From an uncultured Bacteroidales bacterium (GTDB lineage: Bacteria > Bacteroidota > Bacteroidia > Bacteroidales > Paludibacteraceae): a stretch of DNA of 64,000 nt. The translations under genes and the position numbers were made by a program. The notes under the pieces are model-generated. The model was not told the origin of the DNA. It saw nothing but the letters and a program-made list of their open reading frames with translations, and searched no databases. The stretch is from contig CAMNCW010000036.1 in the NCBI GenBank assembly GCA_946534715.1, forward strand, positions 19,820 to 83,819. The letters are read 5' to 3'. Below, in pieces: positions 19,701 through 64,000 of the stretch. Numbering within the stretch: the first letter of the stretch is position 1; each line of letters opens with the position of its first letter.

Positions 19701-21355
19701 ATTTCTTTCCTCTCGTACCTGTGTTTTCTTATTCCCCAAACCAATCCGCCGATGAGTGCTAAAATGCCGATAGGCAGACTGATACTGAGTGTTTGTATTT
19801 GCGCGCGGTATTGATGCGCACGTTGGTCATTCAATAAGCGCAATGCGACGCTTTTCTCCCGTAGCCCGATGATGCCTTCGCTGTCCGTGAGCCAGAGAAT
19901 GGCATTGACCGCAAAATCGCGGTTGGAGAACTGCATTCCGCTGTAACGGTCATAACCCATGGGGAGCACTTGTCCTTTCTGGGTCTCGTTCAACAATATA
20001 CTGCCGCTACCGATCACCACTTGCCGGGTCTTGACGCCCGTTTTGCGGATTGGCTCGTCGGTCTCGATGCCTTTGGGCATCATACGGTGCGCATAAGCGC
20101 TGCTGAAAGCTCCTTCCAAAGAAACGGCTATCGGAACGTACTGATAGACGAATGTCTTGGCGTCGGGGTTCATGTCATCCAGGTTCACTTTGCCCGGTGT
20201 GGCGGTTACGCGGCTTGCAGTGCTGGTGGCTAAAAGCACACGTTTCTCAATTCCGTCTTCGCCGCCGACAGCATCAACGGGGCTGACAAAAGTACTCATC
20301 ACTTGCCCCATGTTTCGGGTGATAGGTGACCCTTGGCTGGTTAGCAGTAACGGAGCATAGGTCCACGGCATTGGCTGTAAGTTCGGCTGAGACGGATCGG
20401 AACTGACGTTCACCGGTATCGGCAGACATTGGATATCTTGCACCAGGGCGGGGTTGACCCGTACACCGTATCGGAAGAGCATATCCGACAGACCTAATTC
20501 CATGGCGATGATGGGGGTGAAACCTTCCTGTTGTAGCACTTGTTCGCTGAACTGAACACCGTTAACCGCCCATAGGACAGCGCCGCCGCGCATGATGTAT
20601 TGGTCTATCACAAAGCGCTCTGCATCGCTGAATGCCGTAACTGGATTGACGATGATTACCGCCTTGTACCCGTCTAAGATGTGCGCGTTCACATGCTCGT
20701 CCGTTATGCTTCCCCGGTCCACTTGGTAGTACTTGCTCAGCGCGCTCATCAGGTCATAGGTGTGTGCCTCATCCGGCTCTCCGTGACCTTCCAGAATCGC
20801 CACACGCGGGGTCTCTTTTTGTTGCAACAGATGCAACGCTTCCGCAAATGCGAACTCCAACTGCTCAATGCTGGCGTTGAGGTTCTCTTCGCCGCTCAGG
20901 CCGCGGGTGTTCTTGAGCAGACTCACCACAGCGCGTTTGCCTTTGTACTGCATCAACGCATAGGGATAGACGGTGGTCTGTGCGGTCTTGCCGTTCTGTT
21001 CTCGCTCATGGATGACGATGGGATTCAAACCTAATGAATCCGCAATCTCAATTGTGCATTGTGCATTGTGAATTGTGAATTGTGCATTGTGCATTGTGAA
21101 TTTCCCATACACGTTCATTTCGTCGATCGTCTCTTCCGTGGCTTTTTTGAGCCTTCGGAAACCCGAATTAAGGTCGCCGTCTAAGAGTAGCGTGATCTCG
21201 ATCGCCTCGTCGGTCTGGCGAAGCATGGCCTTGGTCGCTTCGCTCAGACTGTAGTGTTTGTCGTCCGTCATGTCCCAACGAACAGGCAATAAGTATGAGG
21301 CCGCGATCATCGCCGCCAACACACCAAGCACTATGATAAACCGCTCAATTCTCAA
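19697..21355 (-). CDS. gldG: GldG-like gliding motility ABC transporter auxiliary protein
   Basis: LLPVRWDMTDDKHYSLSEATKAMLRQTDEAIEITLLLDGDLNSGFRRL; C-terminal TM; ABC_transp_aux features. Confidence 0.85.
   Translation of the reverse strand: MRIERFIIVLGVLAAMIAASYLLPVRWDMTDDKHYSLSEATKAMLRQTDEAIEITLLLDGDLNSGFRRLKKATEETIDEMNVYGKFTMHNAQFTIHNAQCTIEIADSLGLNPIVIHEREQNGKTAQTTVYPYALMQYKGKRAVVSLLKNTRGLSGEENLNASIEQLEFAFAEALHLLQQKETPRVAILEGHGEPDEAHTYDLMSALSKYYQVDRGSITDEHVNAHILDGYKAVIIVNPVTAFSDAERFVIDQYIMRGGAVLWAVNGVQFSEQVLQQEGFTPIIAMELGLSDMLFRYGVRVNPALVQDIQCLPIPVNVSSDPSQPNLQPMPWTYAPLLLTSQGSPITRNMGQVMSTFVSPVDAVGGEDGIEKRVLLATSTASRVTATPGKVNLDDMNPDAKTFVYQYVPIAVSLEGAFSSAYAHRMMPKGIETDEPIRKTGVKTRQVVIGSGSILLNETQKGQVLPMGYDRYSGMQFSNRDFAVNAILWLTDSEGIIGLREKSVALRLLNDQRAHQYRAQIQTLSISLPIGILALIGGLVWGIRKHRYERKEI
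21048..21102. repeat. Heptameric array inside gldG
   Basis: 7-bp units tgcattg/tgaattg; encodes MHNAQFTIHNAQCTIEI. Confidence 0.92.
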
Positions 21356-23140: not shown

Positions 23141-24232
23141 TTATCCTTTCTCCCCCTTTGAGAGGGGGGCGGGGGGTATTACGTACTTCTTGTACGTCTT
23201 TTCAAACAACCCCACGGCTTGCGCCAAGCTTCCGAATAGTTCGCCTCCCGAGGCATTGGCGTGACCGCCGCCGTGAAAGACCTCGCTGGCCCATATGTTC
23301 ACCGGACGGTCGCCTTGCGAACGGAAGGAAATGCGGATGCGCGGTTTGGGGGTGCCGGGTTTGGGACGTTCCTCACGCATCATCACCGAGTAATAGATAT
23401 CCGCTATCTGCAACGGCATGTTCACGATGCCCTCGGTGTCGCCCACTTTGTAGTGGTATTGGTCCAACTCGTCAGCACTGAGGGTGATGAGCGCCAAGTG
23501 GTATTCGGGGTAGATACGCATCTTGCGGTATAACGCATAACCCGTCATTCGCAAACGGTCTGTCGAGTATTGGTTGAACACGGCGTTGTAGATCGCATCT
23601 TTCTGTACGCCCGCGCGTAGCAAAGAAGCGATGATGTCGTACAACTCTGCGTTCGTGGAGTTGTAACTGAAATTGCCGGTGTCGGTCATCAGACCCGTAT
23701 AAATACATGTCGCAATCTCGTAACTCAACGGATTCCTTTCTCCCTCCCTTGAGGGGAGGGCTGGGGTGGGGTTGACTCCTGCTATCAGCTTGTACACCAC
23801 TTCACATGCCGAACTGGCGGTGGGGTACGAGTGTACCTCCGTCCATATATCCAAACTGCATTGCGGATCCAACAGGTGGTGGTCAATCATCACTTTGGGG
23901 CAGGGGTTTGCTAACATCTTTTCGCCAACGGGACCGATGCGTTTGGGGTCGTTGAAATCCGTGCAGAGCAACAGATTCGCCCCTTCGATGAGTTTGTTGC
24001 AAACGGCGGTCTCTTTTTCATACACGCGTATTTGGTCTGCTCCGGGCATCCAGTTGTAGAACGCCGGAAAAGCATTCGGTACAATCACCGTGCATTGTGA
24101 ATTGTGCATTGTGCATTGTGAATTGCAATAGTGCCACAATGCCAATGCTGAACCCATCGCGTCACCGTCGGGCGCCATGTGCGTAAGTATTATAATATGT
24201 CCTGCTTTTGCTATTAATTCGTCCATAAGCAT
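23141..24232 (-). CDS. DHH/DHHA1 phosphoesterase (NrnA-like oligoribonuclease/pAp phosphatase)
   Basis: HIIILTHMAPDGDAMGSALAL, MIDHHL, FHGGGHANASGG; likely ATG at 24232 or 24226 just after the promoter. Confidence 0.9.
   Translation of the reverse strand: MLMDELIAKAGHIIILTHMAPDGDAMGSALALWHYCNSQCTMHNSQCTVIVPNAFPAFYNWMPGADQIRVYEKETAVCNKLIEGANLLLCTDFNDPKRIGPVGEKMLANPCPKVMIDHHLLDPQCSLDIWTEVHSYPTASSACEVVYKLIAGVNPTPALPSREGERNPLSYEIATCIYTGLMTDTGNFSYNSTNAELYDIIASLLRAGVQKDAIYNAVFNQYSTDRLRMTGYALYRKMRIYPEYHLALITLSADELDQYHYKVGDTEGIVNMPLQIADIYYSVMMREERPKPGTPKPRIRISFRSQGDRPVNIWASEVFHGGGHANASGGELFGSLAQAVGLFEKTYKKYVIPPAPLSKGEKG
23736..23772. repeat. GC-rich hairpin element inside nrnA-like gene
   Basis: ctttctccctcccttgaggggagggctggggtggggtt; encodes NPTPALPSREGER. 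Confidence 0.85.
24090..24128. repeat. Heptameric array inside nrnA-like gene
   Basis: gtgcattgtgaattgtgcattgtgcattgtgaattg; encodes NSQCTMHNSQCT. Confidence 0.92.
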
Positions 24233-56560: not shown

Positions 56561-57679
56561 TCACTTCGTAGCGTTGTAAGCTCTCTCCTTCAACTCCAAG
56601 AACCGTGCGCTGGTTGTGTCCATCATCGCCGGACTAAGCTTCGGTACACGGATCGGAGTGCCGACTGCAATCTTACTTGGGTTGTTCAGTTTATCTTTGT
56701 TTGCTTCGTACAAATAAGGCCAGTAAGCCTTATCGCCGTAGTATTTCTTGGATATCCATGCCAAGCGGCTACCCGGTGTTAACTCTTCCGTCAGCAGCAA
56801 CTCGTCGTATGTCCACTCTTCTTCCGGGACCACCTCCTCTATAACGATTTCCGGCGCGATACTCTCTTCCTCTGCGGCAACAACCTGTTCCGTTTGCGGC
56901 TTGTCTTTAGCAAACTCCTCTAACCATTGGCTGAATCGGTTGCGAAGGAAGAAATAACCGATTAACAACAACAGCAACAGAATGACCACACAGATCAGCG
57001 TGTCACGCAGGAAATGGTATTTCTTTTTCGGTTTCTCAGGTGTTTTGGGCGCTTTGGGAGCTTCCGGCTCAACAACCACCTCTGCCGGTTTCTCTGCAAC
57101 CACTTCCGCCGGTTTCTCTTCCACTACCTCTGCCGGTTTCTCCTCCACTACCTCTGCCGGTTTCTCAACAATCACCGGCTCTTCTTTCATTACCGGTTTC
57201 TCATGCTTCGTTGCGTTTCCCTTTTTCATATCGGTATCGTTTGTTTCGGTTTTTCCCTCTTTCTCTTTATTGGGGGTCTGACCCAATTCGCCTAATATAT
57301 CTACGATTTCTATGGCTTGTGCGCCTAATTTCTTGAGCGGGTCAATCTCTTTTGCCTCTTCCTCCTGCGCATAACTGTCTGCTCCCGGACGTCCTTCCAC
57401 CAACTCTTTCACACCTGCCTCCGGTGTAAAGTTCACTTTCGTGTAACCATCGATCGTGATCTCCGCTCCGGTCGTTACGTCCACGCTCTTACGGGCTGCC
57501 ACGGATTGTAACTTAAATGTTCCCAAACCGTTCACTTTCACCTGTTTGTCCTGTTTCAAGGCTTCGAGTAACTGCGTAGTAAAAGCATTCAGAAAGCTGT
57601 TTGCTTCCTTCTCGCTGATATCGGCACGTGTCATTAACGCGCGGCGTAATTCTGTCCAACTAAGTTTATTGTCAGCCAT
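56561..57679 (-). CDS. HU/IHF-like domain - Pro/Glu linker - TM helix - LysM fusion
   Basis: N-terminal HU-like domain (TELRRALMTRADISEKEANSFLNAFTTQLLEALKQDKQVKVNGLGTFKLQSVAARK), repeats EKPAEVVE, KKKYHFLRDTLICVVILLLLLLIGYFF TM, LysM-like C-terminus (LTPGSRLAWISKKYYGDKAYWPYLYEANKDKLNNPSKIAVGTPIRVP). Confidence 0.88.
   Translation of the reverse strand: MADNKLSWTELRRALMTRADISEKEANSFLNAFTTQLLEALKQDKQVKVNGLGTFKLQSVAARKSVDVTTGAEITIDGYTKVNFTPEAGVKELVEGRPGADSYAQEEEAKEIDPLKKLGAQAIEIVDILGELGQTPNKEKEGKTETNDTDMKKGNATKHEKPVMKEEPVIVEKPAEVVEEKPAEVVEEKPAEVVAEKPAEVVVEPEAPKAPKTPEKPKKKYHFLRDTLICVVILLLLLLIGYFFLRNRFSQWLEEFAKDKPQTEQVVAAEEESIAPEIVIEEVVPEEEWTYDELLLTEELTPGSRLAWISKKYYGDKAYWPYLYEANKDKLNNPSKIAVGTPIRVPKLSPAMMDTTSARFLELKERAYNATK
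57075..57176. repeat. 24-bp tandem repeat in the HU-TM-LysM linker
   Basis: Repeated gccggtttctc.nc.ac.ac.tct; encodes four to five EKPAEVV(E/A/V) units. Confidence 0.92.
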
Positions 57680-57682
57680 ATA

Positions 57683-57961
57683 TTAGAGCTTTTTAAATTC
57701 ATCTTTGATGGTACTCGCAGGCCGGAATACCACTTGGTTTTTACTGGGGATAACGTTTCTCTCTCCGGTTCTCGGATGAACGATCACGCGGGCATTGCGC
57801 TCTTTGATTTCCAACGAGCCCAAACCCTGTAACTGAACCGCCTTACCCGACATCAGACTCTCGCGGATAATAGCGTTTGTTGTACTGAGTAAGTTTTCCG
57901 TATCTTTCTTACTCATGCCCGCCTCGGAGGCGATCATCCCTATTAATTCTTTTGTTAGCAT
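57683..57961 (-). CDS. HU family DNA-binding protein
   Basis: MLTKELIGMIASEAGMSKKDTENLLSTTNAIIRESLMSGKAVQLQGLGSLEIKERNARVIVHPRTGE; start 57961. Confidence 0.92.
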   Translation of the reverse strand: MLTKELIGMIASEAGMSKKDTENLLSTTNAIIRESLMSGKAVQLQGLGSLEIKERNARVIVHPRTGERNVIPSKNQVVFRPASTIKDEFKKL

Positions 57962-59346
57962 ATTAATTGTGAATTGTGCATTGTGCATTGTGCATTGTCA
58001 ATTATTTCTCCGTACAGGTCAAACTCCTCAGCCTTGGTGATCTTCACATCTACAAACTCTCCAATGTGCATTGTGAATTGTGCATTGTGCATTGGTATCA
58101 GCACTTCGCAATCCACTTCCGGGCTGTCGTATTGTGTCCTGCCGATAAAGTATTCACCTTCCTCGCGGTCGATGATCACGCGTTGTGTCGTTCCCACTTT
58201 CTCCGCCATCAGTTCGCCGCTTATCTGCTGCTGGATAGCCATCAGCTCTTGCACGCGCGCGTCCTTAATATCTTGCGGTATATCGTCTTTGTAGTGCTTG
58301 TTGGCGTACGTGCCCTCTTCGTCCGAGTAGGCAAAACAGCCCATTCGGTCAAAACGCATTTCTTGCACCCATTGTTTCAGTTCCTCAAAATCTTCTTCCG
58401 TCTCTCCGGGGTGTCCCACCAACAGGGTCGTCCGGATGCAAATGCCCGGCACTTGTTCGCGTATTTTCCGTATCAACGCGTCCTGTTCCGCGCGGGTGAT
58501 ATGCCGTCTCATCAGTCCCAACATATGGTCCGTACAATGTTGCAAAGCGATGTCCAAGTATTTGCACACGTTCGCGTGTCTTGCCATCACTTCCAACAAC
58601 TCCTCGGGGAAATCAGTCGGGTAAGCGTAATGTAACCGGATCCATTCCACACCCTCTATCTGTGCCATTTGGTCTATCAGTTCCGGCAACAGGTGCCGTT
58701 TTTCGAGATCTAACCCGTAACTGCTCAGATCCTGTGCGATGACATTGATCTCCTTCACGCCCTGACTCACCAGCCATCTCACTTCGTCCAATATCTCCTC
58801 CATCGGTCGGCTGGTATGTCTGCCTGTGATCAGCGGTATGGCGCAATACGAACACATCCGGTTGCATCCCTCGCTGATCTTCAGATAAGCATAGTGTCTC
58901 GGTGTCGTCAATTTCCGCTCATACGAAGCACATCCTTCCGCGGGCTTCGTCAATTTTGCCGGATAGCATCCGGCCTCAGTCCCCTCTCCTTGGGAGAGGG
59001 TTAGGGTGAGGTTTTCAAAATCGAATTTTCCAAAATATTCATCCACTTCCGGCAGTTCTTCCTCCAGTTCCGCGCGATACCGTTCGCTCAGGCAGCCCAT
59101 GACGATCAGTTTCCGCAGTTTGCCTTTTTTCTTCCGTTCCGCCATTTGGAGGATCATGTTGATACTCTCCTCCTTGGCGTCGCCGATGAATCCGCACGTG
59201 TTGATCACGCACACTTCGCCTTTGGGCTCTTCGGGGTCATGCACACATCGCCAGCCTGCCGCCTCCAACTGCCGCATCACGCGCTCTGCATCCACTAAGT
59301 TCTTCGAGCACCCTAACGTTATAAAATCTACTACGCCTTTCTGCAT
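57955..59346 (-). CDS. rimO: Ribosomal protein S12 methylthiotransferase RimO, with repeat insertions
   Basis: FITLGCSKNLVDAERVMRQL, INTCGFIGDAKEESIN, YAYLKISEGCNRMCSYCAIPLITGRHTSRPMEEI. Confidence 0.96.
   Translation of the reverse strand: MQKGVVDFITLGCSKNLVDAERVMRQLEAAGWRCVHDPEEPKGEVCVINTCGFIGDAKEESINMILQMAERKKKGKLRKLIVMGCLSERYRAELEEELPEVDEYFGKFDFENLTLTLSQGEGTEAGCYPAKLTKPAEGCASYERKLTTPRHYAYLKISEGCNRMCSYCAIPLITGRHTSRPMEEILDEVRWLVSQGVKEINVIAQDLSSYGLDLEKRHLLPELIDQMAQIEGVEWIRLHYAYPTDFPEELLEVMARHANVCKYLDIALQHCTDHMLGLMRRHITRAEQDALIRKIREQVPGICIRTTLLVGHPGETEEDFEELKQWVQEMRFDRMGCFAYSDEEGTYANKHYKDDIPQDIKDARVQELMAIQQQISGELMAEKVGTTQRVIIDREEGEYFIGRTQYDSPEVDCEVLIPMHNAQFTMHIGEFVDVKITKAEEFDLYGEIIDNAQCTMHNSQLIC
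57964..58094. repeat. Two heptameric arrays at the 3' end of rimO
   Basis: attgtgaattgtgcattgtgcattgtgcattgtcaatt (57964-58003) and caatgtgcattgtgaattgtgcattgtgcattgg (58061-58094). Confidence 0.92.
58981..59013. repeat. GC-rich hairpin element inside rimO
   Basis: cccctctccttgggagagggttagggtgaggtt; encodes NLTLTLSQGEG. Confidence 0.88.
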
Positions 59347-62226: not shown

Positions 62227-63228
62227 TCACTCCCGAAACCGTTCCTCCAATTCCTTCATTCTTGCTATTAATTGCTCAAAGGGCAACTTCTCCCCGTAGA
62301 TCATAGTTCCGCTCATCCGCTGATAATCTTCTTTCCATTCACGCATCCAGCGTTCCGGCGGCGTAAGGCACAACTCCGCGCGCATATGTTCATTATAATC
62401 TACTCCCGCCATCGCGGTAAAAGCCATCCGATGCTGACGAATATGCTCCCATAATGCATCATCCTTCACCGCCGCTATTGCAAACGGCTTATCCATCATT
62501 CGCTCTATGTCATACAAGTGCCGGCTCCTGCGGTTGGCCGACAATGACTCGCGCTCAATAGAGAACAACTCATGCAGCAGAAATACCTTCTCCAAGAATG
62601 TCTTTTGCGGAGCAGCTACGCTAATCGCTACATTCTTATAATCCTCTACCGGCAACACTTCCGATACCATACTGCGGCATATAATCTCCTCCGTCGGCTC
62701 TATCAACGAACGAGCACCCACTTCCAATTTCACTACTGGCTGCACGTACGATATGGAACTTTCTTCGTATAAACTGCGGTAATACAGACTGATCACGCGC
62801 GGTTCGGGATATGTACCGTCACCCTCGCCATCCGGCTGTACTTCCAACCGGCACTCACCCGATAAACCTGCATCGTCCAACGCCTGCTGCAACCACCCGG
62901 CTAACTCTTGAGCTACAAACAACGACGAATGCTTGCGCAAACTCTTGATCTGCTTCTTCGTCGGCAAATCCGTCAGTCCGAAATAAGCAGGATTGATAGC
63001 CAAGTCAATATCCTCCGAAAAACGCTCTATTAGGTTCCATCCCTTGCTCAAACTCGTTCCTCCCTTGAATACCAACTGATCCGCAATCTCCAGATCAAAC
63101 ACGATGTTCAATATTTGGCTCACCCACCAATCTTTCTCTATAATCGGCTCGGGCAATCCCTTTTTCTGAGCGGTCAGCAAAAAGGCCTGACGACGCTGCT
63201 CGTCTGTGTATTTCAAAAATGCAACCAT
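62227..63228 (-). CDS. AbiEii-family nucleotidyltransferase toxin (type IV TA)
   Basis: IIEKDWWVSQILNIVFDLEIADQLVFKGGTSLSKGWNLIERFSEDIDLAI. Confidence 0.93.
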   Translation of the reverse strand: MVAFLKYTDEQRRQAFLLTAQKKGLPEPIIEKDWWVSQILNIVFDLEIADQLVFKGGTSLSKGWNLIERFSEDIDLAINPAYFGLTDLPTKKQIKSLRKHSSLFVAQELAGWLQQALDDAGLSGECRLEVQPDGEGDGTYPEPRVISLYYRSLYEESSISYVQPVVKLEVGARSLIEPTEEIICRSMVSEVLPVEDYKNVAISVAAPQKTFLEKVFLLHELFSIERESLSANRRSRHLYDIERMMDKPFAIAAVKDDALWEHIRQHRMAFTAMAGVDYNEHMRAELCLTPPERWMREWKEDYQRMSGTMIYGEKLPFEQLIARMKELEERFRE

Positions 63229-63231
63229 AAT

Positions 63232-63843
63232 TTAGCTATTATCTATCGCCTCCATCGCGATTGTTTGTACCCAATCCGGCATCAGTGCCAAATCGTGCTG
63301 AATGCTATGTCTGTCCTCTTTCTGCAATAGGGCTAATACATGCGCCTTCTGCTCCTCTGTCAGATGCTCCCTTCCAATCTCCTTCAGCGCAAAGGTTACC
63401 AGCATCGCAGTCCTGTTCTGAAAGGCAATATTCCGCAAAGCAGTATGCACAAACTGCATCGTATGACCATCTGCCAACTCAATACTCCTTGTCCGACCGC
63501 TCGTCAGATATACAAACCGCATTGGTAACTGCTCCGATAGTCCTAACCGGTTCAACGCATGAACACCCGTCGGAACGATCTTAGCCCGCTCTTTCTTTGC
63601 TATCGCATTGGCTATATCGTCATACGATGGTGGCAAATAACCCGTGCCCCAAACCTTGTCTTTCTTCGGATAGCAATATATCCCGCGAGAAACCCGAACC
63701 ACGTGACCTTGTTTCTCTAATTGTTCTAATGCTTTTTGCACCCTTTTGGGATTCGAATAGTGCGCATAATCGTCCTTTGTGAACACCACACCCCTGCCGC
63801 GTTTTTTCAAACTCGTTAATATATCATTATCAACACTTTCCAT
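63232..63843 (-). CDS. AbiEi-like antitoxin (DUF6088-type)
   Basis: RGRGVVFTKDDYAHYSNPKRVQKALEQLEKQGHVVRVSRGIYCYPKKDKVWG; immediately upstream of abiEii; likely ATG at 63843. Confidence 0.88.
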   Translation of the reverse strand: MESVDNDILTSLKKRGRGVVFTKDDYAHYSNPKRVQKALEQLEKQGHVVRVSRGIYCYPKKDKVWGTGYLPPSYDDIANAIAKKERAKIVPTGVHALNRLGLSEQLPMRFVYLTSGRTRSIELADGHTMQFVHTALRNIAFQNRTAMLVTFALKEIGREHLTEEQKAHVLALLQKEDRHSIQHDLALMPDWVQTIAMEAIDNS

Positions 63844-63896
63844 ACTATTTTTCTCCTGAATTTTTTCGCTAATTTGTATATATATTTGCGAAAATC

Positions 63897-64000
63897 GCTG
63901 CAAAGATACAACAAATTTTGCACATATGCAAGCGTTCGGGCATTTTTTTGAAAAAAAAGCGATTTATCGCGAATTATTAGGATATAGGACGGCTGTCGGG
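63897..64000. repeat. ~100-bp direct repeat, copy B (runs to window edge)
   Basis: Near-identical to 61704-61807. Confidence 0.92.
63901..63931 (-). promoter_or_regulatory. Bacteroidota-type promoter of abiEi, inside direct repeat copy B
   Basis: Same TTGCATATGTG...TATCTTTGCA sequence as the recQ promoter. Confidence 0.72.

Follow-up and report, generated by a model that had tools for sequence, protein, structure and literature searches.

It is not yet settled how bacteria hold and move their nucleoid with respect to the cell envelope, and the Bacteroidota have received little study in this regard. In this study, we examined a 64,000-nucleotide stretch of DNA from an uncultured Bacteroidales bacterium (the window), which encodes a protein combining an HU domain, a transmembrane (TM) helix and a LysM-type domain, raising the question of whether such a protein physically links DNA to the cell wall. 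Our analyses point, with rather less than even confidence, to an asymmetric HU heterodimer, with one half soluble and one bitopic, that would link the chromosome to peptidoglycan in gut Bacteroidales, in parallel to a separate HU-SPOR design. A conserved two-gene unit possibly joining DNA to the wall in such abundant gut bacteria makes the question a testable one.

A sequence-only reading of the window had described the protein as an HU/IHF-like domain, a repetitive EKPAEVVE linker, a KKK-preceded TM helix and a periplasmic-type LysM domain, and all of these parts were recovered (Table 1). Structure prediction, a check which that reading had proposed, gave an HU fold, a long TM helix and a LysM-type fold (AF2), with pLDDT values of ~90–97 for the HU and LysM domains, lower values for the helix at residues 114–131 and low values, indicative of disorder, for the linker. 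Residues 9–94 matched Pfam Bac_DNA_binding (PF00216) with E=1.2e-16 (61.1 bits, cut-off 22.4), and the predicted HU domain (pLDDT ~90) was matched by Foldseek to HU and IHF structures; the score of the protein against HU-HIG (PF18291) was 22.7 bits, short of the cut-off of 26.2. In the helix following the HU domain, P114, L118, Q121, A122, E124 and I125 are invariant among 45 sequences. The EKPAEVVE linker is encoded by a 24-bp tandem repeat of 3.9 copies (57073-57166) that is specific to the window protein, its relatives having other Pro/Glu-rich linkers. The TM core is a single hydrophobic helix with a mean hydropathy of 3.05, within an AF2 helix that spans residues 223–258.

Table 1. Positions of the fusion protein, its parts and the neighbouring genes in the window.
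Feature	Coordinates	Strand	Basis or remarks
Membrane HU-TM-LysM protein	56561..57679	(-)	372 aa, ATG start
Cytoplasmic HU domain, residues 1-97	57389..57679	(-)	Pfam PF00216 and AF2/Foldseek HU-IHF fold
HU beta-arm, residues 58-80, family motif R-K-S-V-N/D-V-x-T-G	57440..57508	(-)	Val for canonical wedge Pro
Conserved helix after HU, residues 114-131, PLxKLGxQAxEIxDILxxL	57287..57340	(-)	Alignment and AF2
Variable Pro/Glu/Lys cytoplasmic linker with EKPAEVVE repeats	57014..57280	(-)	Tandem repeat; low pLDDT
TM helix core, residues 227-245, KKK before it	56945..57001	(-)	Hydropathy and AF2
Acidic periplasmic linker, residues 246-292 (predicted)	56804..56944	(-)	Linker length in 111 relatives
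LysM-type domain, residues 293-354	56618..56803	(-)	NCBIfam, AF2, Foldseek
Dedicated partner HU	57683..57988 (longest ORF), likely start ATG 57961	(-)	PF00216 E=9.6e-23
rimO, conserved upstream neighbour	57955..59346	(-)	UPF0004, Radical_SAM, TRAM_2

The topology of the protein was predicted from 111 distinct relatives. In the 16 residues flanking the TM helix, the mean number of Lys and Arg residues was 4.35 on the N-terminal side versus 2.05 on the C-terminal side, with the N-terminal side the richer in 96 relatives, the two sides equal in 10 and the N-terminal side the poorer in five, and none of the 111 had a signal-like, strongly hydrophobic stretch in its first 40 residues. On the basis of this charge bias and the absence of a signal peptide, the protein is predicted to be a bitopic inner-membrane protein with its HU domain in the cytoplasm and its LysM domain in the periplasm, the same orientation that the sequence-only reading had drawn from positive-inside charge. 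The periplasmic linker has at least 43 residues in all of these relatives, a length which, if extended, could span to the peptidoglycan.

The identity of the LysM domain required closer consideration, as the Pfam LysM model (PF01476) had no match in the window protein and matched one of 18 relatives (E=0.0028). Despite this, a LysM-type fold is indicated by an NCBIfam LysM/Kbp model (E=3.7e-7, under that model's cut-off), by a predicted beta-alpha-alpha-beta fold at residues 294–346 (pLDDT ~95) and by a Foldseek superposition on Kbp of 1.2 A rmsd over 55 columns with 33% identity. Kbp/YgaU-type LysM proteins have this fold in common with the window LysM, whereas Kbp is a cytoplasmic protein that also carries a BON domain and the window LysM is predicted to be periplasmic on a TM stalk. 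That the nearest solved domain is from the potassium-binding Kbp and that the Pfam model matches so few relatives are both compatible with the domain binding an ion or another envelope protein and not peptidoglycan. We consider this improbable given the predicted periplasmic side of the domain and the setting of the closest other LysM in the same genome, which belongs to a protein bearing a signal peptide, a barrel-like region and, as judged by eye, an OmpA-like region, and so supports a wall context for LysM domains of the type found in the window protein.

The order of parts, HU, TM and LysM, is kept in all 111 distinct relatives, and the fusion or its HU-HU form was found in 19 of 119 Bacteroidales genomes, from 17 of the 108 families sampled. 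There were no fusion-type matches outside the Bacteroidales in a class-wide sample of 148. A search with the window protein in its own GTDB family matched 117 of 120 genomes, a count which includes stand-alone HUs and is therefore an upper bound for the fusion. Judged by these searches, HU-TM-LysM is a family conserved in the Bacteroidales, as the sequence-only reading had suspected, and restricted to them within the orders sampled, and the fusion is carried by many gut and rumen members. The nearest public relative (95% identical) is from an uncultured Bacteroidales MAG, and dN/dS in comparison to it is about 0.04 for HU and 0.03 for LysM (locus L053). An annotation or assembly artefact is ruled out by the 111 distinct relatives and these low dN/dS values. 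The sole apparent split of the fusion (L175, genome G050), with its HU and TM-LysM halves in two ORFs, has a run of N near the break and is probably an assembly gap. No description of an HU-LysM family was found in our search of open papers.

Both the stand-alone HU gene and rimO, which had been recorded beside the fusion, were confirmed by their ORFs and Pfam matches. The HU gene, however, is more than the mere neighbour it had been taken for. It lies 3 bp upstream of the window fusion gene, and a stand-alone HU was found directly upstream of 109 of the 111 distinct fusions at distances of -17 to +30 bp. The partner of L040 fell outside the original locus, with the wider locus L178 containing it; the L178 pair is at a different site, beside a trmD-like gene, and L130 is a relative with no partner HU. 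As a control, 28 rimO loci were retrieved from genomes picked as fusion-free, one of which (G145) turned out to encode an HU-HU-TM-LysM protein missed by the HU model. No HU was detected near rimO in the other 27, several of which are short, using HU models built from known partners, and in four of the 27 the rimO ORF itself was unrecognised by the script; the absence of HU at rimO where there is no fusion is thus good, not complete, evidence. Single chains of HU-HU-TM-LysM were identified in three families (L176 in f53, L177 in f79 and L207 in f27), each flanked by rimO on one side and a moxR-like gene on the other. A tree built from 60 HU domains, drawn from few columns and with many of its forks left open, grouped the membrane HUs together (SH-aLRT 95) and likewise the partners (SH-aLRT 87), with HU1 of L143 placed among the partners and its HU2 among the membrane HUs. 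The neighbouring HU is thus a dedicated partner with a clade of its own, and is probably half of a DNA-binding unit. Taken together, the adjacency, the control loci, the HU-HU fusions and the tree speak strongly for the two HU domains functioning as one unit, which would most simply be a heterodimer.

A heptamer-type repeat, AATTCACAATGCACAATG, was also observed in the window, with 15 matches versus 0.01 expected and clusters at 21050-21102, 24086-24124, 57972-58003 and 58062-58093. Two of the clusters are at the end of rimO, where they contribute residues such as MHNAQFTMH to its frame. A longer form of the repeat has 14 copies in the window genome and was found in none of 20 relatives.

Whether such a unit would grip DNA depends on its arms and charge. 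The window HU is like the HU/IHF nucleoid proteins in its fold, arm and dimer-type domain, and the window pair differs from them in having one HU that is tied to the membrane and coupled to a dedicated stand-alone HU. Arm residues R63, S65, V66, T70 and G71 are invariant or nearly so in sets of 18 (A1) and 45 (A3) sequences. The membrane HU arm, R-K-S-V-N-V-x-T-G, has Val at the position of the canonical intercalating Pro in the window protein and most relatives, and L039 has the canonical GRNPRTG. The main HU of the window genome is likewise without the arm-tip Pro, and we therefore rejected Pro loss as proof against DNA binding. The sequence-only reading had held that an HU-like domain without DNA-binding arms would speak against a tether; the window protein has its arm, whereas the membrane arm is lost in four lineages (L038, L178, L143 HU2 and L037 HU2) and shortened in a fifth (L207 HU2). 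These five lineages indicate that the family can dispense with DNA clamping by the arm of the membrane HU. In all five, the partner or first HU keeps its arm, and the mean net charge of the partner HU is +5.7 versus +1.8 for the membrane HU. With arm loss on the membrane side only and the higher charge of the partner, a large share of any DNA binding probably falls to the partner.

The same arm losses and weak basic charge of the membrane HU, together with the conserved non-HU helix at residues 114–131 as a possible docking site, could indicate instead that the two HUs serve for protein-protein dimerisation and not for DNA binding, in a complex that acts as an envelope scaffold and brings a further cytoplasmic protein to a site anchored on peptidoglycan. 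In eukaryotes, the HU domains of CCDC81 have probably moved away from DNA binding. We regard this rival, the foremost of those considered, as unlikely, since membrane HUs that have the arm show almost no variation in it and the partner arm is kept in every arm-loss lineage. A one-piece sensor, in which the LysM would read the state of peptidoglycan and the HU pair would change transcription or supercoiling locally, in DNA close to the membrane, could be built from the same parts (HU, TM and LysM), and membrane-anchored DNA-binding regulators exist. However, HU has little sequence specificity, and long, variable linkers fit a tether better than signal transfer, making the sensor very improbable.

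Set beside the computed domains, likely topology, conservation, gene pairing and HU-HU fusions, the tether mechanism that we infer is as follows. The membrane HU and the small partner HU would form a heterodimer at the inner face of the membrane, in which the partner, more basic and with an intact arm, would account for a large part of the hold on DNA, and the membrane HU would complete the dimer fold and provide the anchor. The long linker, the TM helix and the acidic periplasmic linker would let the LysM domain hold peptidoglycan. The complex would then pin chromosomal DNA to the envelope loosely and without sequence specificity, and this pinning may aid nucleoid positioning or segregation. 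We judge the chances of an HU heterodimer tether from nucleoid to peptidoglycan across the membrane to be evenly balanced. Counted against it are the weakly basic membrane HU, the Val in place of Pro, the arm losses, the Pfam LysM miss, the partnerless L130 and the cytoplasmic location of Kbp, the source of the closest solved LysM.

A DNA-to-wall plan of this kind is not wholly new, as the HU-HU-TM-SPOR proteins have the same plan and a predicted partition role. Burroughs and colleagues reportedly predicted, in Cell Cycle in 2017, a chromosome-partition role for the bacterial CCDC81-type HU. The HU-CCDC81_bac/SPOR proteins (PF18174, PF18175 and SPOR) resemble the window protein in joining, within a single chain, cytoplasmic HU, usually a TM segment, and a peptidoglycan-type domain on the periplasmic side, but have two degenerate HUs per chain and SPOR in place of LysM, and a kdsB-like neighbour in some loci, unlike the window fusion. 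Matches to CCDC81_bac_1, a marker of the HU-HU-TM-SPOR design whose full architecture was checked in a few genomes, with TM predicted in several cases, were found in 106 of 119 genomes of the order and 88 of 120 of the family. The window protein scored 26.8 bits against the bac_2 model (cut-off 35) and had no match to bac_1 or SPOR. In profile comparisons, the membrane HU was closer to ordinary HU than to the CCDC81 domains, and its derivation from CCDC81 is thus unsupported. For the same reason, one plan seems to have been invented separately in the HU-LysM and HU-SPOR designs. The SPOR type was absent from 11 of 13 sampled genomes of the window's genus, and all three genomes of the family in which no HU-LysM match was found carry the SPOR-type marker. 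Replacement of the SPOR design by the LysM design is suggestive only, as at the level of the order SPOR absence is about as common with the fusion as without it.

Elsewhere in the window, the tandem ORFs at 62227-63228 and 63232-63903 appear by eye to encode an AbiEii-like nucleotidyltransferase and an AbiEi-like regulator, and are a possible candidate for an abortive-infection or toxin-antitoxin pair.
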